From a virus, in the IMG/VR virus record IMGVR_UViG_3300009149_000172, positions 1-31,083 of that record: a stretch of DNA of 31,083 nt, one strand, 5' to 3'. The notes beneath the pieces were generated by a model that saw only the letters and a list, made by a program, of their open reading frames with translations, did no database searches and was not told the DNA's origin. This document shows positions 7,704-30,083 of this stretch, piece by piece. Both the position numbers and the translations under genes were made by a program. The stretch's first letter is position 1. Each line of letters starts with the position of its first letter.

Positions 7704-10409
7704 ATGTTTATAACAACTAGAAATAAAGAGGTTTCCGAGATTGTTGATAATTCGGAAAATCTAAAGAGAAGAAAAACTATTCTCCAAAGGGCGATGACTG
7801 TTCAAAAATCCAATATAGGTAAAAATTGGGATTACATTAGGGATACAACCTCCATAGTATCAAGGGATTTCGACCACCATGAATATTCTACTCATCAAAA
7901 ATTAATTAATGAATTTAAAGAAAAATCATGGCCCGGAAATCGATGTTTTCTTGTCGGGGGTGGTCCAAGTTTGAAGGGATTCGACTTTTCCCGACTTTCG
8001 AATGAATTTACCATTGCGATAAACAGGGCTCATGAGTTCATTAAAGATCCTTCCATCATATTTTTTATAGATGAAGACGGGTTTTATAATGAGCTTGTGA
8101 ATGGCGGGTTCGGATGGGATGCCCTTAAAAAATTTAATACCAGCCAATCGATTAAAGTTGTGCTCAACATATCTGGACGCAGGTATGGATGTGATGTATA
8201 TTCTGTTCCTATTTCAAAGAACCCGGAAATGACATTCGATTTGAAAGAAGGCCTTTATGATGGAGAAGATTCCGGCTTTGCGGCCTTGAATCTTGCCGTT
8301 TGCCTGGGAGTAAAGACGATTTATCTCTTGGGATATGATATGGAGGGTGATGGAAAAGGGAATCAGGCATGGTTTCACGATGGCTATAAACAGGTAGGAA
8401 AAGAGAGGAATTATAAAGATTGGATAAAGCATTTTGAAAAGATAGCATCCTTATTAGAAAGAAAGAAAATAAAAGTTATAAATCTTAATCCAGATAGTGT
8501 TTTGAAATGCTTTGAATTTGGGAAATTTGAAGAAATCGAAAATCTTGGCAAAGATCATACATATGTTGCAAAAGATAATTTATTTTTTGATGGATGTCTT
8601 GGTTTCGGTGATGTTTTTCAGGAACGCCCTCTTATAAAACATTTCCTAAAGCAGTATAAAACGGTTTATGTTAAAACCCCATTACCTGAATTATTTTGGG
8701 ATATCCCGAATGTCATATTCGTCCGCCCTCCAGAGATTCTCAGAACACAAAACAAACACATGGAATCACTTCCTCCTGAGACTTGGTCAAAGGTGCCCCC
8801 CCATACAAAGAGGTTGGGTTGGAGTAATTACCCACCAGGTGGACATTTATTCCCGAAGACAGATGCCCATCCGAATGAAATAATCGAACCACGGCCAGTA
8901 AACTGTGTAGCCAAACACATAAAGAATTTTGCTGGGATTGAGGATTATGATTTTTCTTTTCCTGTCAGAACAGCGTGGGTAAAAGCCGCTAAAGAATTTC
9001 TCGGTGGCCTTCCTGTTAAATGGAAAAAATTATGTCTTATTCGGCCCCCAACAATTCGTGACGAATGGTATTGCCCATCGAGAAATCCCAAGATTGAATA
9101 CATACAGCTCCTTATTGATCGATATAAGGATGAATATTTTTTCTTGAGTCTTGCCGATGTAGATGGGAAGGCAGAAAGATATGATGGCATTCTCAAAGGA
9201 CTTGATGCCGAATTTCACCATGGAGAGGTTCCACTTACAACGATATTCGGTCTCATGAAAATCGCCGATATGTCAATTATTTACCCCGGGTTTTTTATGC
9301 CTTTGGCAATAGCGATCCGATCCAAATGCTTCTGTATTTTCGGGGGGAATGCTGGACCACAAGTCCATATTGATCCAATTATGGGCATTGAGAATTTCGG
9401 ATGGATTGCTCCAGAACCGTTCTGCCAATGCATCAATAATACTCATAATTGTAATAAGGATATCCCGGAGGAAAAGATTATAGCGGCATTTGAAGAATTA
9501 AAGAACCGACCAAAGAAAATCAAAGAGGTGATATTTGGTTTTCCTCCAGGAATCGGTGATGTTCATTGGCCCTTACTCATTCTCGAATCCTTCAAGGAAC
9601 GACATGCCATTGATCGAGCTATTATTAAGTTTTGGGAATGCTGGGAGTATACTTCCGAATTTTTAAAAAACATTCCTTTTGTCGATGATGTTCGAAAATC
9701 CTCCCCACTTCATTTTTCATTTTCTCTCGCTGGGGGTACCGGACAACCTTTATATAAGGATAAAGAAGGATTTGATTACATGATCGAATTCGGTTCAAAA
9801 CTAGAGCAGGGCGTTTTGCTTGAACAGATTATGCCCGAGTATGAGGTGAATTGGGAATATGAAATCTGTGGCCTTGATAAATATGATGAATTTGTTTCCA
9901 AATTGCGTGAAGAAACGGGCGGGCGACTAATTGTTGTTTATACGTCGAGCGCAGGTGGGAACCATGCTTGGGCCAAGCAGGATTGGACTGTCCAAGATTG
10001 GATGACTTTGATAAATCTGATTCACAAGGCAAATGGTTGTAAGATTGTTTTGGTCGGGGCAAGATTTGATAAGGATTGCGCTATTGAACTTAAGGCTCTG
10101 GATAAAGAGGGAATAACCATTGATCTGGTAGGGCAAACAACGATCATGCAAACTCTGGCGATCATTCGAAGTGCCAATTATTTTATTGGATTTTCCTGTG
10201 GATTGGAATTAATGGCTTGTCATTTTCATGTTCCATGTGCCGAATTCTGGCCTATCCGGGGCGTTTCACAAGGTGGAGTCTATGGTCCTGGATTCATGAC
10301 CTCATGGCTCCCACCCTGGTCAAGAAACTCAGACACGTATCTTCCGATTCCGTATGGTCCGGAATCAAAGCCAGATTTAATTTTCCAAAAATTAAGGAAA
10401 TTCTTATGA
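7704..10409 (+). CDS. Three-domain DUF115-like / tandem GT9-like glycosyltransferase
   Basis: The 901-residue protein combines three parts. Residues about 75-265 resemble DUF115/MptE-like proteins, many of them linked to glycan transfer: VGGGPSL (84-90), AINRAHEF, FIDED, and SGFAALNLAVCLGVKTIYLLG. Residues about 290-600 and 605-900 each begin with the G.GDV motif of GT9/ADP-heptose-type glycosyltransferases (GFGDV 300-304, GIGDV 616-620). Each also has the later nucleotide-sugar-binding half (IIYPGFFMPLAIAI near 525-538; IVLVGARFD 781-789 and FIGFSCGLELMACHFHVP 827-844). The role is probably transfer or modification of a sugar. The ribosome site is AAAGGAG. The stop overlaps the next start by ATGA. 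Donor and acceptor are unknown. Confidence 0.7.
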   Translation: MFITTRNKEVSEIVDNSENLKRRKTILQRAMTVQKSNIGKNWDYIRDTTSIVSRDFDHHEYSTHQKLINEFKEKSWPGNRCFLVGGGPSLKGFDFSRLSNEFTIAINRAHEFIKDPSIIFFIDEDGFYNELVNGGFGWDALKKFNTSQSIKVVLNISGRRYGCDVYSVPISKNPEMTFDLKEGLYDGEDSGFAALNLAVCLGVKTIYLLGYDMEGDGKGNQAWFHDGYKQVGKERNYKDWIKHFEKIASLLERKKIKVINLNPDSVLKCFEFGKFEEIENLGKDHTYVAKDNLFFDGCLGFGDVFQERPLIKHFLKQYKTVYVKTPLPELFWDIPNVIFVRPPEILRTQNKHMESLPPETWSKVPPHTKRLGWSNYPPGGHLFPKTDAHPNEIIEPRPVNCVAKHIKNFAGIEDYDFSFPVRTAWVKAAKEFLGGLPVKWKKLCLIRPPTIRDEWYCPSRNPKIEYIQLLIDRYKDEYFFLSLADVDGKAERYDGILKGLDAEFHHGEVPLTTIFGLMKIADMSIIYPGFFMPLAIAIRSKCFCIFGGNAGPQVHIDPIMGIENFGWIAPEPFCQCINNTHNCNKDIPEEKIIAAFEELKNRPKKIKEVIFGFPPGIGDVHWPLLILESFKERHAIDRAIIKFWECWEYTSEFLKNIPFVDDVRKSSPLHFSFSLAGGTGQPLYKDKEGFDYMIEFGSKLEQGVLLEQIMPEYEVNWEYEICGLDKYDEFVSKLREETGGRLIVVYTSSAGGNHAWAKQDWTVQDWMTLINLIHKANGCKIVLVGARFDKDCAIELKALDKEGITIDLVGQTTIMQTLAIIRSANYFIGFSCGLELMACHFHVPCAEFWPIRGVSQGGVYGPGFMTSWLPPWSRNSDTYLPIPYGPESKPDLIFQKLRKFL

Positions 10410-11221
10410 GTAGAAATTATACAGAAGATTTATTTTGGGATCAGGAAAAGGAGATCGGATTCTATCCTGTCAAAGACACCTGGTATGATGATTTATATTA
10501 TGAGGCTAGTGTGGAAAAATCTAGGAGTAAGATTGCAGATGAATTGAATAAATTCAGGGTCAATCTTGTTAATAAATATACCATGGGAAGAATTCTTGAT
10601 TTTGGTACGGGATGCGGTCAGTTTATAGAATATCGAGGGAATTGTTTAGGTTATGATATCTGTTACAGGGCAGTTGTAGAATTGCGAAAGAAGAATCTTT
10701 ATTATGATTTTTGGAATGATGATTTTGGAAGACGGAAAATCGAAGCTGTAACAATGTTTGATGTTTTGGAACATGTAGGAAATCCGACAACTGTTCTTTC
10801 GCAAATATCCTGTCGTTATGTTTTCATCTCTATTCCAATTTTCCGAAGTAAAGACCATGTGCTCAAATCAAAACATTTTAAGCCACGTGAGCATTATTGG
10901 TATTTTTCACAAAAATCTATAAGAGCATTGATGAAAAATAACGGATTTACTTTGATTGAATGTCGAAATGACGAAATAAAGATGGGTAGGGAGGATATTT
11001 ATACTTATGTATTTAGAAATGATGGCGAACAAAATAAAGATATTTGTGATTTATGTTTTTGTAGGCGGAATGATTTTTATCCAGCAATTGGAAACCGATA
11101 CATGTGCTTAAAAGAATATTGTCTTTTTAGATATATGATCTCATTAAATGGAAAAAAGCCATTATGTTTATTGAATGATTCACATTTCAGGAGAATCGAA
11201 ATTGAAAGCAGCTATACTTGA
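10406..11221 (+). CDS. Class I SAM-dependent methyltransferase with Cys-rich tail
   Basis: I start it at ATG 10406, which overlaps the previous stop. The longer frame from 10217 merely shadows the upstream gene. The 271-residue product has motif I ILDFGTGCGQF (63-73), the acidic GYDI loop (82-85), FDVLEHV (118-124) and the WYFSQKSIRALMKNNGF segment (165-181) typical of Methyltransf_23-type enzymes that often act on sugars or small molecules. After the catalytic domain come C214, C217, C219, C234 and C239, which could form a zinc-binding tail. In a sugar cassette it may O- or N-methylate a glycan, but the substrate is inferred from context only. Its end overlaps the next gene by 20 bases. Confidence 0.8.
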   Translation: MSRNYTEDLFWDQEKEIGFYPVKDTWYDDLYYEASVEKSRSKIADELNKFRVNLVNKYTMGRILDFGTGCGQFIEYRGNCLGYDICYRAVVELRKKNLYYDFWNDDFGRRKIEAVTMFDVLEHVGNPTTVLSQISCRYVFISIPIFRSKDHVLKSKHFKPREHYWYFSQKSIRALMKNNGFTLIECRNDEIKMGREDIYTYVFRNDGEQNKDICDLCFCRRNDFYPAIGNRYMCLKEYCLFRYMISLNGKKPLCLLNDSHFRRIEIESSYT

Positions 11222-12232
11222 AAAACTAAACTCACCCCTCGTGGTTGACAGCATCGAGCCACAGAGATTGCAATACGGGCAAGTTCTGGTTGAAGTTCAC
11301 AAAAGTGGAATTTGCGGGGCCCAGATCGGAGAGATAGCCGGGGTTAGAGGTCCGGATAGATTTCTCCCTCATCTTATGGGCCATGAGGGTGGGGGTATAG
11401 TGCTCGAGATTGGGCCCGGTGTAAAGTACGTGAAACCAGGAGACCATGTCGTTATGCATTGGAGAAAAGGCGTTGGTATCGAAGCAGATCCGCCAAAGTA
11501 TCAACGAGGAGACAGTTTGATTGGGGCGGATGGGTTACGACATTCAACGAGATGGCTGTTGTATCTGAAAATCGATTGACTCCGATCGCAGAGGATATTC
11601 CCTTTGAAATAGCTGCACTTATGGGATGCGCTGTCACAACCGGATTGGGAATTATAAATAATGAGGCTCATCTTAAAATCGGCCAGTCCATAGCCGTTAT
11701 AGGATGTGGTGGAATAGGATTGAACGTAATCCAGGGCGCAGCAATGGTATCGGCAAATCCCATAATCGCTATCGATATTAATAATCTTAAGCTACAGATG
11801 GCATGGGAATTCGGATGTACTCATACGGTCAATTTGACTCAGGAAGATATTAGTGAAAAAATTGAAGAAATTATCGGAAAGAATGGATCTGACGTTTTTG
11901 TGGATACTACAGGTCGGCCGGATCTGATTGCCAAAGCATACAGATTAACTGCTCCCAAAGGAATAACCATAATGGTCGGGCAACCACACCATAGCCAGTA
12001 TTTGATAATTCCTTCGATAGTAAACGATTTCAAGGGCAAAATGCTAATGGACAGCCAGGGAGGATTGACGAATCCCACCATAGATATCCCAAGGTATATA
12101 AATTTGTATCGTCAAAAAAGGCTTAAACTTGATAATCTGATTACTCATAGATATCCGCTGGGTAAAATCAATGAGGCAATTAAAACGATCAAAGATGGAA
12201 AAGCTGGTCGAGTTATATTGGAGTTAAAATGA
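11202..12232 (+). pseudogene. Zinc-type medium-chain alcohol dehydrogenase, frameshifted
   Basis: Two frames together make one complete medium-chain dehydrogenase of about 343 residues. The first runs from TTG 11202 (AGGAG at 11189-11193, 8 bases upstream) and carries the zinc-site C38 in SGICGAQ, GHEGGG (60-65), and GDHVVMHWRKGVGIEADPP. The second (to 12232) carries WVTTFNEMAVVSENRLTPI, the Rossmann motif IGCGGIG and a normal C-terminus. The frames join at about 11526-11530: adding one G to GCGGA would restore LIGAGWVTTFNEM. It could be a recent mutation, a sequencing error or programmed frameshifting. The reaction would be NAD(P)-linked oxidation or reduction of a sugar or polyol intermediate. 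Confidence 0.8.
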
Positions 12233-13419
12233 ACAAACAACAACTGATAAATTTTGAGAGTAGAATAGCCAGACAGTTTGATGACGGGGAAATTCCGTAT
12301 TTAATTCATTTTTCAGGAGGGAATGAGGATCAGTTGTTGGATATATTCCAGAACATAAAACCGGGGGATTATATATTTTCCTCTCATCGTTCCCATTATC
12401 ATTATTTACTGGCCGGGGGACCCCCCAACCGGTTGGAAGATTTAATAATCGATGGGAAAAGCATGTTTGTGTTTGATAGAAAGTTGAATTTCTATACATC
12501 ATCGATCGTTTGCGCTACCGCCTCAATTGCCGCTGGCGTAGCATGGGCACTAAAGAAGAAAAATAGCGATAAGAAAGTTTGGTGTTTTGTAGGAGATGGA
12601 GCGGAGGATGAAGGCCATTTTTATGAAGCAGTAAGATATGTGGATGGGTGGGATTTGCCCTGCACATTCATTATAGAGGACAATGATAGATCCGTTAGTG
12701 CTTCTATAGAAGAGCGACACGGTACTCCTTTTAGACTTCGATGGCCCGGCTGTGTCAAACGATATCTTTATACGCCAACGTATCCTCATGGTGGAAATGG
12801 GAGCGGGAAATGGATCAAATTCAAGAAAGAGGCTATAATAGAAAAAGTACCCGAAAAGAAAATATATACATTACCAAAAACGAAATCATTAGAAAGCCCT
12901 ATGAAATATATAGATGCTGTCAAAAAATCTATGCAAATATTGGCTGAAAATAATAAAACATACTTTGTAGGTTACAATGTTAGGCACGGTGCTGCATACG
13001 GGACTCTTAAGGATATCCCGGAGTCACAAAGGTTGGAGACTCCTTTGGCAGAAAATCTAATGGCCGGTCTGGCTATGGGGATGTCAATGGAGGGATTTAA
13101 GCCGGTATTGTTTTTCGAAAGACATGATTTTGTATACAATGCCATTGATGCATTGGTGAATCAACTTAATAAGATCGATCAAATTTCACAAGGTGAATTT
13201 GTCTTTCCTATAATTATAAGAGCAGTTGTTGGCGGGATAAAACCTTTTTATGCCGGGTTAACCCATACTGCGGATTTGACTGAACTCTTTAAGGATATCT
13301 TTTCATTTCCAGTATATGCACCAGAAACACCGGCAGAAGTTATAAAGGCGTATGAGATAGCAATGGTTTCTAAAGGGCCGGTTCTTATTTCTGAAAGAAA
13401 AGATTTATACGAACAATAA
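12229..13419 (+). CDS. Minimal fused thiamine-diphosphate enzyme (E1 alpha-beta-like)
   Basis: The 396-residue protein has an E1-alpha-like half, with SSHRSHYHYLLAGG (51-64) and the thiamine-diphosphate motif GDGAEDEG (122-129) ending in N152. It is joined to an E1-beta-like half with TPLAENLMAGLAMG (271-284; E275 is the candidate cofactor-activating Glu) and DALVNQLNKID (307-317). It thus keeps only the PP and PYR cofactor domains, without the C-terminal transketolase domain, and is about half the size of a normal alpha plus beta pair. No E2/E3 partner is nearby, so it probably does not act in a classic dehydrogenase complex. It may make or cleave a C-C bond in a sugar pathway (inference). 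It starts by ATGA overlap with the dehydrogenase. Confidence 0.75.
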   Translation: MNKQQLINFESRIARQFDDGEIPYLIHFSGGNEDQLLDIFQNIKPGDYIFSSHRSHYHYLLAGGPPNRLEDLIIDGKSMFVFDRKLNFYTSSIVCATASIAAGVAWALKKKNSDKKVWCFVGDGAEDEGHFYEAVRYVDGWDLPCTFIIEDNDRSVSASIEERHGTPFRLRWPGCVKRYLYTPTYPHGGNGSGKWIKFKKEAIIEKVPEKKIYTLPKTKSLESPMKYIDAVKKSMQILAENNKTYFVGYNVRHGAAYGTLKDIPESQRLETPLAENLMAGLAMGMSMEGFKPVLFFERHDFVYNAIDALVNQLNKIDQISQGEFVFPIIIRAVVGGIKPFYAGLTHTADLTELFKDIFSFPVYAPETPAEVIKAYEIAMVSKGPVLISERKDLYEQ

Positions 13420-18468: not shown

Positions 18469-21400
18469 TTGGCTTTTGAAGTAGGCGCAATCGTAAGCAA
18501 GCTTGAATTGAAAAAAGATCAATGGAATCAGTCTATAAAGAAAGTTAAAGAAGATCAAAAAAGTCTCAGCGGTCTTGTATTAAGAAACAGTCAAAGTTTT
18601 GCCAAGATGGGCCGGGCTATGACCGTCGCAGGGGGAATAATTGTCGGCTCAATCGGTTTAATGGTTAAAGCATATGCAAACTTCGATCAGGCGATGACTG
18701 AATCCCTTGCCATTATGGGTGATATCTCTGATGAGACCAGAAAAAAAATGTCTGATATGGCCAAAACGATGTCAGAAGAAACCACATTTTCAGCTAAGGA
18801 ACTTGCTGAAGCTTACTTTTTCCTGGCATCGGCCGGAATGGATGCATCACAATCCATAACAGTTTTAGGTGATGTGGCTAGATTTGCCCAAGCTGGTGCA
18901 TTTGATCTGTCAACGGCGACTGATCTTTTAACCGATGCTCAAACCGCCTTAGGACTGTCTTCCAAAGATGCCATAAAAAATCAAGAAAATCTTATTCGTG
19001 TTTCTGATGTTCTGGTAGGTGCAAATACTCTTGCCAATGCCTCGGTTAAACAGTTTGCAGAATCCCTGACAAATAAAGCGTCGGCGGCTCTTGTTAACGT
19101 GAACAAGGAAGTAGAAGAGGGGGTCGCTGTTCTGGCTGCCTATGCAGATAAAGGAGTAAAAGACTCGCTTGCTGGCCAACGTTTAACCATGATGCTTAAT
19201 GGGCTTTTTGATGCAAGCAGAAAAAATACAAAGGCATGGGATGAGGCCGGAATTTCCCTCTTTGAAGCCGATGGAAGTATGCGTTCGATTGCAGATATAA
19301 TCCAGGATTTGGAAGGCTATCTGGGGTCTATGACGGTCAAACAAAGAGAGGCGGCGCTCGCCCAATTAGGGTTCAACCTTAGAACGAAAGATTCTATTTT
19401 GACATTGATGGGATCCTCTGAGAAGATAAGAAAATGGACTGAAGACCTAAAAAATATGGGGGGCAAAACCAAAGAAGTTTCTGACAAGCAATTAGAAACT
19501 TTCAATAATCAATTAAAACTTTTGAAAAATACGGTTACAAACGCAGCAATATCAATAGGTGAATCCTTGGCTCCGATGATAGGGGATCTTGTCGTAAAGA
19601 TCAAAGAGGTGGCGAAAAGCGTTTCGGATTGGATAAAGGAGCACCCAAAACTGACGGCTGTAATAGCAAAAACCGCTTTAAAAGTTGGGGCTTTATTGAC
19701 CGTTCTCGGACCGCTAGTTATGATGTTGCCCGGGATAGCAAAAGGATTTATGCTTCTGAAGCTTTCATTTACTTCAATGCTCGGCCCAATTGGATTAGTA
19801 ACCGCAGGACTTGGATTTATTACTATTGAAGTAATAAAAGCAAACAAACATTTCAAAAATTTAACCGCAACGATAAGTGAATTTTCAGAAAAATCTGGTG
19901 AGAAAATATCCTGGTTCAAAAAAACTCTTTGGAGTTTGGATGAGACTTATCGTAAATTCACAACAGGGATTAGTAATTCAGAAATCGTTGCCAGAAAGAT
20001 GAGAGAGGAAATAGGGAAGCTAGATAAAAAACATGCAGAATATGGTAAAAAGGTTTGGGACTCAATAGAGGGAACAGAGGGATTTTCAAAGGCATCTGAA
20101 TTTCTTAATAAATTATTAGGAAAACAGAAAGGGATAATAGAAGAAGATACCGAGGCAACCGAAGATCATGGAAAGGCAACCGAAAGGGCAGCAAAAGAGA
20201 CTAAAACTTGGATTGATTATATAAAAGATATTGGTATTAAAACCGTAAAAGAAAAAAGGGATAGGATCAAAGAATTAGGAGGTTATGTTGATGGATTAAG
20301 TAGGGCATATGCAGCAGGTGAAATTAGTTTAGAAGATTACACAAAAGCACTCAAGACGGCTACAGATGAAATAGAAGACTTATCAACGGCCATTACAACG
20401 ACTGCAATCCCGGCTTTTCGTGATATGTCTGGAGTGGTTGAGCAGGCAACGGATGAAATGGAAAGTGAATTTTATGATACTTCCGAGGCAATTAAAAAAA
20501 CCACGAAAGATGCTGAGCAAGCTATTGAAAAATCATGGGATGAACTACATCCTTATTTAAGCAATCTCTGTACTGATTTAAGTAATTCTTTCGGTAATTT
20601 TGCTTATGGTCTTATGGATAAAGGTTCTACCCTAGGAGAAAATCTGAAGGGACTATGGGCTGATATAGGCAATTCTTTCAAAACGATGGTGGCTGATTAT
20701 GTAGCAGATCAAGCAAAAAAACTTCTTTTGAGTGTTGTCACTAGCACAACAGAAATGGCCACCAGCGTAACATCAGGACTTTCAGCTATCGGACCAGCGA
20801 TAACCGGAATAGCGACAGGAATAGGGACCCTGATCACGACTCTAGCCACGGCTATCGCTACGGCAGCTACAACGCTTGCGGCGGCGGCCCCAGCGCTTAT
20901 GGTTGTACTAGGCATTGCCCTTGCAGCTTACGCTGGATTTAAACTTATAGGGGCACTGTTTGGGAAAAAAGGTGGCGGTGATTTAGGATATACGAATACA
21001 CTTCTTGAAGAGATTAACTGGATACAACTGGGTGCGATAAACCTGAAACTTGATGTTGTGAACCAAAACTTGGCTGGAATGCATCCTAAGTTTAATACCA
21101 TGTTAAATCAATTCTATAGGATTCGGGATGCAACAGAGGGAACATTAAAGGCTTTGACCTCAGCGGGTACAGTATATGTTGATGTTTTTAGATCAGCGGT
21201 AATGGAAAGACTCGGGCAAAAAACAGATGATCTTGGCAATAAAATTTCAAGTGGTTTAGGTAGCCTTGGGAATAAATTCTCAACTAATATAGACAGCCTT
21301 GGGAATAAATTCTCATCTGGCTTAAAGGACGGTCTGAAGCAGGTTGGAGATAAAATAGGTGGAATAAAGTTTGATACAGGTGGGATAATAAAGGCCATTA

Positions 21401-27907: not shown

Positions 27908-28017
27908 TAATCGGGCTTGATGATAAACAAAAGAGATTGCTCAAAGTCCTTTTAAAGCATCAGAAAAATATATGCAGGATACGTGAAGATTCTAGGAGGG
28001 AAAAATTTCCAAGATAG
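27880..28017 (+). CDS. Small basic protein (45 residues)
   Basis: This starts at ATG 27880 with AGAGGTG five bases upstream and overlaps the end of the previous gene by 28 bases in another frame. The product begins MPNTRKQALIIGLDDKQK and is highly basic, with a Lys/Arg-rich helix (KRLLKVLLKHQKNICRIRED). It looks like a small nucleic-acid-binding or regulatory peptide, but nothing is recognised. The next frame overlaps its stop (TAGTG). Confidence 0.5.
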   Translation: MPNTRKQALIIGLDDKQKRLLKVLLKHQKNICRIREDSRREKFPR

Positions 28018-28124
28018 TGATAGGTGAAATCCTAATAGACTTGGTGATTTTGGGACTGGCTGGCTTTCTGCTATGGAAGGCATATCACTTTATATGCGAT
28101 GAAATTGACAGGAGGGAGAAATGA
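28017..28124 (+). CDS. Small membrane peptide (about 35 residues)
   Basis: The frame starts at GTG 28017, overlapping the previous stop, or possibly at the rare ATT 28005, which has AGGAGGG four bases upstream. It encodes a single hydrophobic segment (ILIDLVILGLAGFLLW) followed by a charged tail (CDEIDRREK). Its TGA overlaps the next ATG. Its tail codes for the next gene's AGGAGGG ribosome site. The start is uncertain. Confidence 0.45.
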   Translation: MIGEILIDLVILGLAGFLLWKAYHFICDEIDRREK

Positions 28125-28279
28125 AGCTCTGGAAGAAGCTATTGCTAGGACTTATTCTCATGTGCGTCTGGGTTATGCTGCCGGTATTCCCGCCCTGCTG
28201 CTGGCTACCCTATGCGATCCAGAGCTTACTGGTCATCATTGGGGCAGGATTAATAATATTAATTATTGCGAGATTATAG
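28121..28279 (+). CDS. Small membrane protein, two hydrophobic segments
   Basis: ATG 28121 has AGGAGGG four bases upstream. The 52-residue product begins MKLWKKLLLGLILMCVW and has two hydrophobic stretches (about 7-22 and 33-50) around a Pro/Cys-rich loop (PVFPPCCWLP). A longer frame from 28099 that overlaps it lacks a comparable ribosome site and is not supported. Small two-segment membrane proteins of this type include holins, but no endolysin is in the window, so a lysis role is only a possibility. Confidence 0.6.
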   Translation: MKLWKKLLLGLILMCVWVMLPVFPPCCWLPYAIQSLLVIIGAGLIILIIARL

Positions 28280-28287
28280 GAGGAAGG

Positions 28288-28380
28288 ATGGCAGAGCCAA
28301 TTCCTAGCCTCCATGCAATGATATTATTATTAATTGTAAAATATCATATAAGGGGAAATGGTAAAGGTAACAATAAATAA
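28288..28380 (+). CDS. Very small protein (30 residues), possibly membrane
   Basis: ATG 28288 has AGGAGGA four bases upstream. The 30-residue product has a hydrophobic core (HAMILLLIVKYHI) and a Gly/Asn/Lys tail. It is the last gene before the 59-bp repeat array, whose first copy starts within its stop region. It is plausible from its ribosome site, but short. Confidence 0.4.
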   Translation: MAEPIPSLHAMILLLIVKYHIRGNGKGNNK

Positions 28381-28744
28381 TGTTTATAGAAAATTTGAAA
28401 TTTTTAAAAACGTAATTTTTAAAAAAAGGATTTAAAAATGTTTGCGGAAAAAGTTTCACGAAAAAAAATACGATTTTTAAAAATTGGGTTTCAAAAGTGT
28501 TTGCCAAAAAACTTTAACAAAATAAAAAGGGTTTTTTAAAAAAAGGTTTTTAAAATGTTTCGTGAAAAATCTTCACAGAAAAAAAAGCTATTTTTAAAAA
28601 TTGAGTTTTAAATAATTTGGAGAAAAAGTTTGACAGAAAAAAAATGCCATTTTAAAGAATTAGTTTTCAATTTCTCTCGGGGTAAATTTGGCTAATAAAG
28701 TTTGATGAGAAAAAATATATTTTTTAGAAATTACTTTTTTATTA
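28375..28744. repeat. Degenerate 59-bp tandem repeat array, AT-rich, non-coding
   Basis: About six units line up: near 28375-28433, 28434-28492, 28493-28551, 28552-28610, 28611-28668 and 28684-28742 (the last after a ~15-base insertion). Shared elements in order are AATGTTT, a GAAAAA(G/T)TTT block, a CACAGAAAAAAA run, then TTTTTAAAAATT, which is self-complementary, and a closing GAGTTTT. Units differ at many positions. The 59-base period is not a multiple of three and every unit contains stops, so it is not a coding repeat. It fills the 403-base gap before the ribbon-helix-helix gene. A-tracts spaced at roughly 10-15 bases suggest bent DNA. Confidence 0.8.
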
Positions 28745-28783
28745 GATTACAAAATAAGGCTTGATAAGATAGGAGGAGAAAAA

Positions 28784-28945
28784 ATGAAAGACGATAAGCT
28801 AGGAGTGCCGATTCATGTGCGACTATTTCCGGAAACTGAGGAGAAATTAAGACGGGTTGCAAGAGAAAATGGTAGAACGACTTCAGGTATGATCCGGTGG
28901 ATAATCATGTGCTATCTGCATGAATCAGATATAAAGAAAAAATAA
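28784..28945 (+). CDS. Ribbon-helix-helix DNA-binding protein (Arc/CopG-like)
   Basis: The 53-residue product has a good AGGAGG ribosome site (28771-28776) and the ribbon-helix-helix pattern: a beta strand PIHVRLFPE (9-17), helix TEEKLRRVARENG (18-30), turn RTTSG, and helix MIRWIIMCYLHE (36-47). Such proteins bind DNA as dimers on repeated operators, as repressors or partition proteins. It lies immediately downstream of the 59-bp repeat array, the obvious candidate binding site (inference). The following promoter at 28959 may also be a target. Confidence 0.75.
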   Translation: MKDDKLGVPIHVRLFPETEEKLRRVARENGRTTSGMIRWIIMCYLHESDIKKK

Positions 28946-29054
28946 TTGAAATTAGTACTTGACATGAATACTGAATATGCTATAATTATGGTATTGAACG
29001 AGTTTTTAAGCATTTTAAAAGGCTTGTGCATGAATTTCTAAAAAGGAGTTAAAT
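28946..29054 (+). promoter_or_regulatory. Sigma70 promoter with perfect -35 and -10
   Basis: TTGACA (28959-28964), a 16-base spacer and TATAAT (28981-28986) match both consensus hexamers exactly. The start would be near 28993, leaving a leader of about 62 bases before the AAGGAG ribosome site (29043-29048). The leader contains a weak AAGC/GCTT hairpin. This is the strongest promoter in the window and drives the zinc finger and HNH genes. Confidence 0.9.
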
Positions 29055-29240
29055 ATGGAATTTAAAGCTAAAATATGCAGATATTGGAAATGCAATAAAA
29101 AGTTCATTCCAACTCGTGAATGGCAAATATTTTGCTCTTCAAAATGTAGAAAGGATGCCTGGAATGAAAGACATAATATCTCTGATTTAAAGCAATTATC
29201 TAAAAGGATTGAAACATTAGAAGGAAAGCTAGAGAAATAA
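29055..29240 (+). CDS. Small zinc-finger protein
   Basis: The 61-residue product has four cysteines as C8-x4-C13 and C27-x3-C31 (ICRYWKC and FCSSKCRKDAW), the pattern of small phage zinc-ribbon proteins (C..C...F.P.....FCS.KCR). A charged helix follows (SKRIETLEGKLEK). It has an AAGGAG site and is first under the perfect promoter. Its stop is directly followed by the HNH gene start. Such proteins often neighbour HNH and host-takeover genes; the function is unknown. Confidence 0.75.
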   Translation: MEFKAKICRYWKCNKKFIPTREWQIFCSSKCRKDAWNERHNISDLKQLSKRIETLEGKLEK

Positions 29241-30083
29241 ATGATATCAATTACGAGTGAGCAATTATCATTGAATTTTGATAATAAGCAGATGAAATGC
29301 AAAGAAAAAATTGCTGAATATCAGAAGCGATATTATCAAAACAATAGAGAGAAGATTGCTGAATATTGCAAAGATAATAAAAAAAAGATTACTGAACGGC
29401 ATAAGTTATATTATCAGAACCATAAAGAGGAGATTCTTGAACGAAGTAAGAAATATTATCAGAATTATAAAGAGGAAAGCATTGAATATCGACAGAATTA
29501 TAAAGAGGAGAGGGCTGAACATTATCAAAACAATAAAGAAAAAATAAATGAACAATCAAATCAATATTATCAGAATAATAAAGAGGAGATTCTTGAACAG
29601 AAAAAACAATATCGCAAGGATAATAAAGAGAAGCTTGTTGAACAAAAAAAGCAATATTACCAAAAGAATAAAGAAGAGAGGGATGAATATAGTAAACAAT
29701 ATTATCAGAATAATAAAAAGGAGAGGGCTGAATATATAAAGCAAAAATACAAAGAAAATCCTAAATTTAGATTGAATGTCTGTATAAGCAGAGCAATCCT
29801 TAAAAGCCTTAAAACTCAAAAAATTTCAAAGAACGGTAGACACTGGGAGTCCCTTGTCAATTTCACTTTAGAGGAACTTATGAGCCGTTTTGAGGGCTTA
29901 TTTCGAGACGGAATGACATGGGAAAATCAAGGCAAGTGGCATGTTGATCACATCAAGCCTGTAAGCCTTTTTAATTTCAATAATGTTAATGATCCTGAAT
30001 TCAAAGAGTGTTGGAATCTTAGCAATCTTCAGCCTCTTTGGGCAAAGGATAATTTATCAAAACACAATAAATATAATGCTTAA
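29241..30083 (+). CDS. HNH endonuclease with long repetitive linker
   Basis: The 280-residue protein has an N-terminal half (residues about 24-175) made of roughly 11 copies of a 15-residue (sometimes 11) unit with the core YYQNNKEEI(A/L)E, which is very rich in Lys, Glu, Asn, Gln and Tyr. The C-terminal HNH domain has WHVDHIKPVSLF (H234, D236, H237), WNLSNLQPLWAKDN (N259, N262, N271) and a final Lys/His. Similar HNH proteins with repetitive linkers occur in phages, often as free-standing homing nucleases. It starts one base after the zinc-finger gene. ATG 29241 has a weak site (GAAAGCTAGAGAAATA). Confidence 0.85.
   Translation: MISITSEQLSLNFDNKQMKCKEKIAEYQKRYYQNNREKIAEYCKDNKKKITERHKLYYQNHKEEILERSKKYYQNYKEESIEYRQNYKEERAEHYQNNKEKINEQSNQYYQNNKEEILEQKKQYRKDNKEKLVEQKKQYYQKNKEERDEYSKQYYQNNKKERAEYIKQKYKENPKFRLNVCISRAILKSLKTQKISKNGRHWESLVNFTLEELMSRFEGLFRDGMTWENQGKWHVDHIKPVSLFNFNNVNDPEFKECWNLSNLQPLWAKDNLSKHNKYNA
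29310..29762 (+). repeat. Tandem repeat region in the HNH gene (about 45-bp units)
   Basis: The DNA encoding the linker is a degenerate tandem repeat of about 45 bp (some units about 33 bp), each carrying TATTATCAGAA(T/C)AATAAAGAGGA-like sequence. Because the unit is a multiple of three, other frames also stay open, giving long false reading frames on both strands. Copy number probably varies between relatives. Confidence 0.8.

Follow-up and report, generated by a model that had tools for sequence, protein, structure and literature searches.

A Degenerate AT-Rich Repeat Array in a Phage Genome Fragment and Its Possible Role in Replication

Genomic Context of the Array

The DNA analyzed here, referred to as the window, is the whole 31,083-base stretch of virus record IMGVR_UViG_3300009149_000172. 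It carries a terminase gene at 1497, a tape measure gene at 18469, and tail and fibre genes up to ~26.8 kb, with small genes after them. At the late-to-early gene boundary, positions 28381–28768 hold an array of degenerate, AT-rich 58/59-bp repeats, ~390 non-coding bases in a gap bounded by a 30-aa ORF (end 28380) and a ribbon-helix-helix (RHH) gene (start 28784). The RHH product also has a Pfam Arc/RHH_5 match that falls below the cut-off. The features of the locus are collected in Table 1, where G001 and G003 denote two related contigs described below.

A perfect sigma-70-type promoter follows the RHH gene, and the corresponding site of G001 (about 9323–9351) reads TTGACA-17-TATAAT. This promoter has been kept in both phages though the next genes differ, and it is likely an early promoter. 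Further along the window, an Endonuclease VII-like gene (29241–30083; phrog_1035, E 5.6e-11) was noted whose N-terminal half consists of in-frame 45-bp repeats (YYQNNKEEI... type). Two other genes of the window were also of note. The product of 12229–13419 is a full-length relative of the cyanophage "transketolase central region-containing" proteins (phrog_34187, E 2.4e-143), ~50% identical to those of Prochlorococcus and Synechococcus phages, in a phage that is otherwise not cyanophage-like. A 901-aa ORF at 7704–10409 matches an alpha-2,3-sialyltransferase phage family (phrog_4603, E 1.4e-25) and phrog_6804.

Table 1. Features of the array and its neighbours in the window.
Feature	Position	Strand	Evidence or remarks
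Small membrane-protein ORF, 52 aa, upstream	28121–28279	+	In G001, an ORF with 81% identity immediately precedes the RHH gene
30-aa ORF between membrane ORF and array; coding status doubtful	28288–28380	+	No counterpart there in G001
Divergent 5' part of array, two ~15-bp AT-rich sub-repeats of GAAATTTTTAAAAAC type	28381–28414	.	TRF 28397–28425, period 15; 74% similar to unit 2 of the G003 array
Unit 1, 58 bp	28415–28472	+	TRF, repeat family, unit alignment
Unit 2, 59 bp, with TTTTTAAAAATT	28473–28531	+	TRF, repeat family, unit alignment
Unit 3, 58 bp	28532–28589	+	TRF, repeat family, unit alignment; positional counterpart in G003
Unit 4, 59 bp, with TTTTTAAAAATT	28590–28648	+	TRF, repeat family, unit alignment; positional counterpart in G003
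Unit 5, divergent, 71 bp	28649–28719	+	Aligned to units 1–4; equivalent 71-bp unit in G003
Terminal partial unit (sixth)	28720–28768	+	End point of similarity to the G003 array
Best-conserved part of array	28534–28768	+	Matches G003 at 209/232 aligned bases
Ribbon-helix-helix (Arc-like) gene, 53 aa, downstream	28784–28945	+	phrog_3431, E 1.7e-5; 75% identical in G001
Perfect sigma-70-type promoter TTGACA-16-TATAAT, downstream of RHH gene	28959–28986	+	Promoter scan

Structure and Composition of the Array

The array is genuine. Tandem Repeats Finder (TRF) reported a period of 58/59 with 4.1 copies and 72–73% matches at 28415–28653, and an independent repeat-family search of the window recovered four ungapped copies spaced 59, 58, and 58 bp apart. 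Self-identity across the gap was 0.598 at lag 58 and 0.569 at lag 59, whereas in 1000 dinucleotide-preserving shuffles of the gap the maximum over lags 20–179 averaged 0.42 and reached 0.486 at most. The 59-bp periodicity claimed in the initial annotation is thus borne out, with a self-identity that exceeds all 1000 shuffles and hence the expectation for AT-rich sequence. About six units had been counted; repeats are indeed present, but they comprise four clear 58/59-bp units (28415–28648), one divergent 71-bp unit, and two partial or divergent ends.

When aligned, the units follow the pattern ATTTTTAAAAA-ww-GG-TTTT-AAAA-tGTTTg-GAAAAAgTTTcACAgAAAAAAAA-gc, with large drift. A self-complementary sequence had been ascribed to most of them, but only two units carry exact TTTTTAAAAATT; four have TTTTTAAAAA. 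The 71-bp unit contains a ~13-bp insertion (CTCTCGGGGTAAA) bearing the only GC-rich block of the array (CTCTCGGGG). A-runs are spaced 14.5 bp apart, which is a quarter of 58 and gives four runs per unit. Fourier power at 14.5 bp was 7.5 in the window array (shuffle maximum 3.3) and 3.8 in its G003 homologue (shuffle maximum 3.45).

As first described, the gap is non-coding and its period breaks the reading frame: the region is devoid of any gene-like ORF, and the alternation of 58 and 59 bp shifts the frame. When AT content is read in 200-bp stretches, the highest values in the window (~79–80% AT vs. a mean of 61%) all lie inside the array, and the G003 copy is equally extreme in AT content. 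The array is a hierarchical AT-rich repeat, of a known kind and with a sequence new to the collections searched; its function we can only infer.

Related Phages and Conservation of the Array

Homologues were sought by scanning for two T5A5 blocks 46–51 bp apart over 2.9 million viral contigs. The one true homologue was locus L038 on G003, a 16,951-bp contig, with 84% identity to the window array over 340 bp, rising to 90% over the last ~235 bp, which correspond to the last four units. Looser unit patterns and other parts of the array, used to look for a third copy in viral contigs, left G003 as the sole true match. No array copies were found in the phages, plasmids, and bacterial genomes of the collections scanned, a result that describes those collections and is not equivalent to absence in nature; the 18-mer GGTAAATTTGGCTAATAA had seven chance matches in bacterial genomes, all without similarity to the array. 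The search of related phages proposed in the initial annotation hence returned one homologue, while the complete relative G001 had none.

In G003, the array lies at 2240–2560, just after a 130-aa gene and before a 47-aa gene, whose homologue in G001 has no array before it. A 235-aa replisome-organiser gene is located ~420 bp upstream of the array (Phage_rep_org_N, E 3.7e-7, above the cut-off; phrog_270 replication initiation protein, E 2.3e-12). The AlphaFold model of this initiator was poor (pLDDT 42). The relative G001, found by protein searches, is a 55,272-bp contig whose ends overlap at 91–96% identity, and it is therefore a complete circle. Its membrane-protein ORF is followed directly by the RHH gene, with the array absent between them, and no comparable array was found anywhere in this genome, which has almost no non-coding gaps. 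A DUF1376 protein stands in the place of the initiator. Searching with the initiator for more relatives returned just the same three contigs.

A further relative, G004 (IMGVR_UViG_3300028161_000002; loci L187 and L191), encodes an initiator that shares 64% identity with the G003 protein and is near-identical to it over the first ~120 residues. No array was found beside its initiator gene; ~8 kb away, at 10761–12395, degenerate AT-rich units of 69–70 bp, repeated in tandem, make up a non-coding island of 1.6 kb. This island is flanked by a 109-aa ORF and an NlpC/P60 gene and lies upstream of the terminase. A common origin of the window array and this island was rejected, the best alignment scoring 28 bits vs. 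a shuffled mean of 27.8, and the arrays of G003 and G004 likewise had no sequence similarity above shuffled controls. Altogether, two homologous arrays occupy two sites, an unrelated one occupies a third, and G001 has none. Judging from these comparisons, the array appears to be an accessory cis-element that is found at differing places with its unit order kept.

Corresponding units of the window and G003 are ~90% identical, while units inside one array are only ~70% alike; the present order therefore predates the split of the lineages or an exchange between them, and no homogenization has occurred since. Both phages retain the same succession of units, together with the odd 71-bp unit and the 3' end, at 90% identity or more, which, given the ~70% likeness among units, indicates a fixed architecture. 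As a yardstick, third codon positions were 53% identical in the shared gene at 315–611 and 84% identical in the other shared fragment (608–988). Measured against these alignments, the array appears more conserved than the former and comparable to the latter, a level at which purifying selection and recent exchange are inseparable. The conservation may reflect recent exchange, as the 84% fragment would suggest.

Readings Tested and Alternative Explanations

Several readings of the array gained no support from the analysis. A CRISPR array, already excluded in the initial annotation, does not fit, as the entire degenerate 58/59-bp unit is repeated and unique spacers are absent. Bent DNA had been proposed as a candidate, but 96% of shuffles were predicted to be more curved, and the spacing of the A-runs is 14.5 bp instead of 10.5 bp. 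An array of promoters was also discarded: 8 promoter-like sites were found in 28000–29100 vs. 5.2 ± 2.5 expected, and only the one after the RHH gene is strong. Insertion with target-site duplication was considered from the 9-base direct repeat ATAGGAGGA, which borders the array-bearing insert at either end (28276–28284 and about 28769–28777). This repeat is a ribosome-binding sequence and was not accepted as evidence; the ends differ in G003, and no end-to-end inverted repeat of the array, the hallmark of an insertion sequence or MITE, was listed. The initial annotation had likewise seen no known transposon end.

The main rival to a replication function, which we place close behind it though it is itself doubtful, is a neutral or selfish tandem-repeat cassette. 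Such a cassette would have grown by slippage, from a 15-mer to a four-part 58-mer to an array, and would be passed between phages through their ordinary recombination, serving no purpose in its carrier. The hierarchical 15-bp sub-repeats within 58 bp are consistent with this history, as are the different neighbours in the two carriers, the absence from G001, the lack of any other match in the collections scanned, the unrelated array elsewhere in G004, and the mosaic exchange between these phages that is visible in other parts of their genomes. Phage genomes are compact, however, G001 being an example, and the retention of order, 71-bp unit, and 3' end contrasts with the 53% third-position identity of 315–611, although a recent transfer could account for conservation without selection. 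An operator or regulatory array for the gene just downstream, e.g., sites for the RHH protein, was among the original proposals and now seems unlikely. In the window, 16 bp separate the end of the array from the start codon of the RHH gene, and in G003 the next start codon follows ~64 bp after the array; the setting at a late-to-early boundary with a perfect promoter nearby would suit regulation. Yet G001 lacks the array and still has the RHH gene behind the same upstream gene, which weakens this reading, and the G003 array precedes a different gene, with no RHH homologue found in that fragment (an incomplete contig). Promoter-like sites are at chance level save the one after the RHH gene, and dyad symmetry of the units does not exceed shuffles; imperfect inverted repeats seen by eye, e.g., TTTCGTGAA-AAATC-TTCACAGAA, were not significant, and a dyad operator was rejected. 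A candidate target for the RHH protein, and perhaps a more natural one than the array, is the strong promoter downstream of its gene.

Two further explanations carry very little weight. That the array is transcribed into a structured RNA, be it a leader, an RNA sponge, or repeats like those of type III antitoxins, is very improbable. The repeats are co-oriented with the genes in both phages, and folding of the minus strand is slightly more favourable than that of shuffles (z −1.35 and −1.15), but fold energies on both strands stay inside the shuffle range (z 0.33 to −1.35), Rfam gave nothing above chance, and neither an adjoining ToxN-like gene nor a terminator was found in the array region. 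A ToxIN-like type III toxin-antitoxin system was rejected on the same lack of RNA structure and Rfam matches, and the next gene encodes an RHH protein. In some plasmid partition systems the adaptor that binds the centromere is a small RHH protein, and the position of such a gene directly 3' of the array invites comparison with a plasmid-type partition centromere, as the initial annotation had proposed. This is the least probable explanation of all. No PF13614 ParA-type ATPase was found in six related records (four of them fragments) by a search whose control was positive in 14/14 genomes, making a partition site unlikely, and the homologous array of G003 has no RHH neighbour.

A Tentative Replication-Origin Reading

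The origin candidate named in the initial annotation still provides our best guess, namely that the array may be an AT-rich phage replication origin or unwinding region, although we hold this tentatively and short of calling it probable. The array would then be a non-coding cis-acting element that acts at the DNA level, a lengthy AT-rich tract that melts easily and has regular A-runs, on which a phage or host initiator could load and at which the strands could open, and related phages would gain, lose, or carry the cassette at varying positions among their early genes. We infer the use in replication, the binding protein, and melting as the relevant property.

Circumstantial support comes from the location of the sole homologue, which in G003 lies close behind a replication-initiation gene. 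G003 and G004, which have Phage_rep_org_N genes, both carry AT-rich arrays, and G001, with DUF1376, does not. Several direct repeats lie inside a non-coding region where the AT content of the window peaks on a 200-bp scale, and a repeat-bearing non-coding region is the mapped origin of a phage satellite (PMC7145576).

Other observations weigh against an origin. The initiators of G003 and G004 are near-identical N-terminally and their arrays are unrelated, so that the expectation of related repeats with related initiators fails. This combination is the strongest counter-evidence; it speaks against sequence-specific iterons read by that N-terminal domain, and if the arrays are origins, melting or host factors would matter and not initiator-specific iterons. 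The complete relative G001 manages without the array. No initiator gene was found in the window record, a fragment whose contig ends ~2.1 kb past the RHH gene; if the gene order of G001 held, the initiator would lie ~6 kb from the array. Sequences resembling DnaA boxes in the array all carried one mismatch and were not beyond chance, and the same was true of inverted repeats in the units.

A bolder form of the origin reading, which we consider improbable, is an origin cassette exchanged or repositioned independently of the initiator gene. It would be a higher-order repeat of four A-run sub-units per 58 bp in which spacing and melting count for more than sequence, such that nearly the same initiators could use unrelated arrays. 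If the array is an origin, replication in these uncultured phages would start at a movable AT-rich module that is decoupled in sequence from a conserved initiator, and sequence-based prediction of origins would change. If it is neutral, it would offer a clean case of a hierarchical tandem repeat tolerated by compact phage genomes. Either way, the window, G003, and G004 form a short list in which replication mapping would be informative.

Comparison with Known Systems

Arrays with the same T5A5 core are known in unrelated large phages. In IMGVR_UViG_3300029705_000046 and its relatives, intergenic TTTTTAAAAATT arrays have this core and a spacing, 57–58 bp, similar to that of the window array; they differ in occurring as dozens of short arrays genome-wide with the consensus TAAAGTTTTTAAAAATTnnAnnTTTTTTGG, and no local similarity to the window array was found beyond the core. 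In one region of that record (98587–120690; loci L111 and L037), 43 TTTTTAAAAATT copies were counted over 22 kb, and 40 lie outside ORFs of at least 60 aa. These copies form short tandem runs with the TAAAGTTTTTAAAAATTnnAnnTTTTTTGG consensus, also seen at loci L040, L079, L091, L099, and L049, and neighbouring copies are mostly 47–48 or 57–58 bp apart, a difference of about one helical turn. A separate non-coding, T5A5-centred array of 47-bp units (TAATTTTTAAAAATTAAAATTTATTG..., score 225) was observed at 2109–2267 of L018, an unrelated viral contig.

Closer at hand, the island of G004 resembles the window array in being non-coding, AT-rich, and built of degenerate tandem units in the early-gene region of a related phage. 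It has another period, is about four times longer, precedes an NlpC/P60 lysis-type gene and the terminase, and has no sequence similarity to the array. Bacterial and plasmid AT-rich DNA-unwinding elements (PMC5043065, PMC4980987) share with the array an extreme AT content in a compact genome and repeated blocks; as a difference, initiator boxes (DnaA or defined iterons) were not recognized on the flanks of the array.

The N-termini of phage replisome organisers are probably related to the DnaD/RepA_N fold class. The origin of the PLE phage satellite is served by a RepA_N initiator whose N-terminal domain resembles DnaD/RepA_N, and its iterons, which are semi-palindromic around a poly-A tract, were proven by binding and deletion (PMC7145576). 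In contrast, the units of the array are 58/59 bp long, degenerate, and without a dyad above chance. RepA_N-type inverted repeats converging on the poly-A tract were not found, the best dyads being in the shuffle range for 9/10 units; that of the tenth exceeds shuffles but centres elsewhere in the unit. Also unlike PLE, the two initiator-bearing relatives G003 and G004 carry dissimilar arrays. The likeness lies in the overall layout: both are repeat-bearing non-coding regions of a phage-related replicon (PMC7145576), and one carrier of the array, G003, has an organiser gene nearby.
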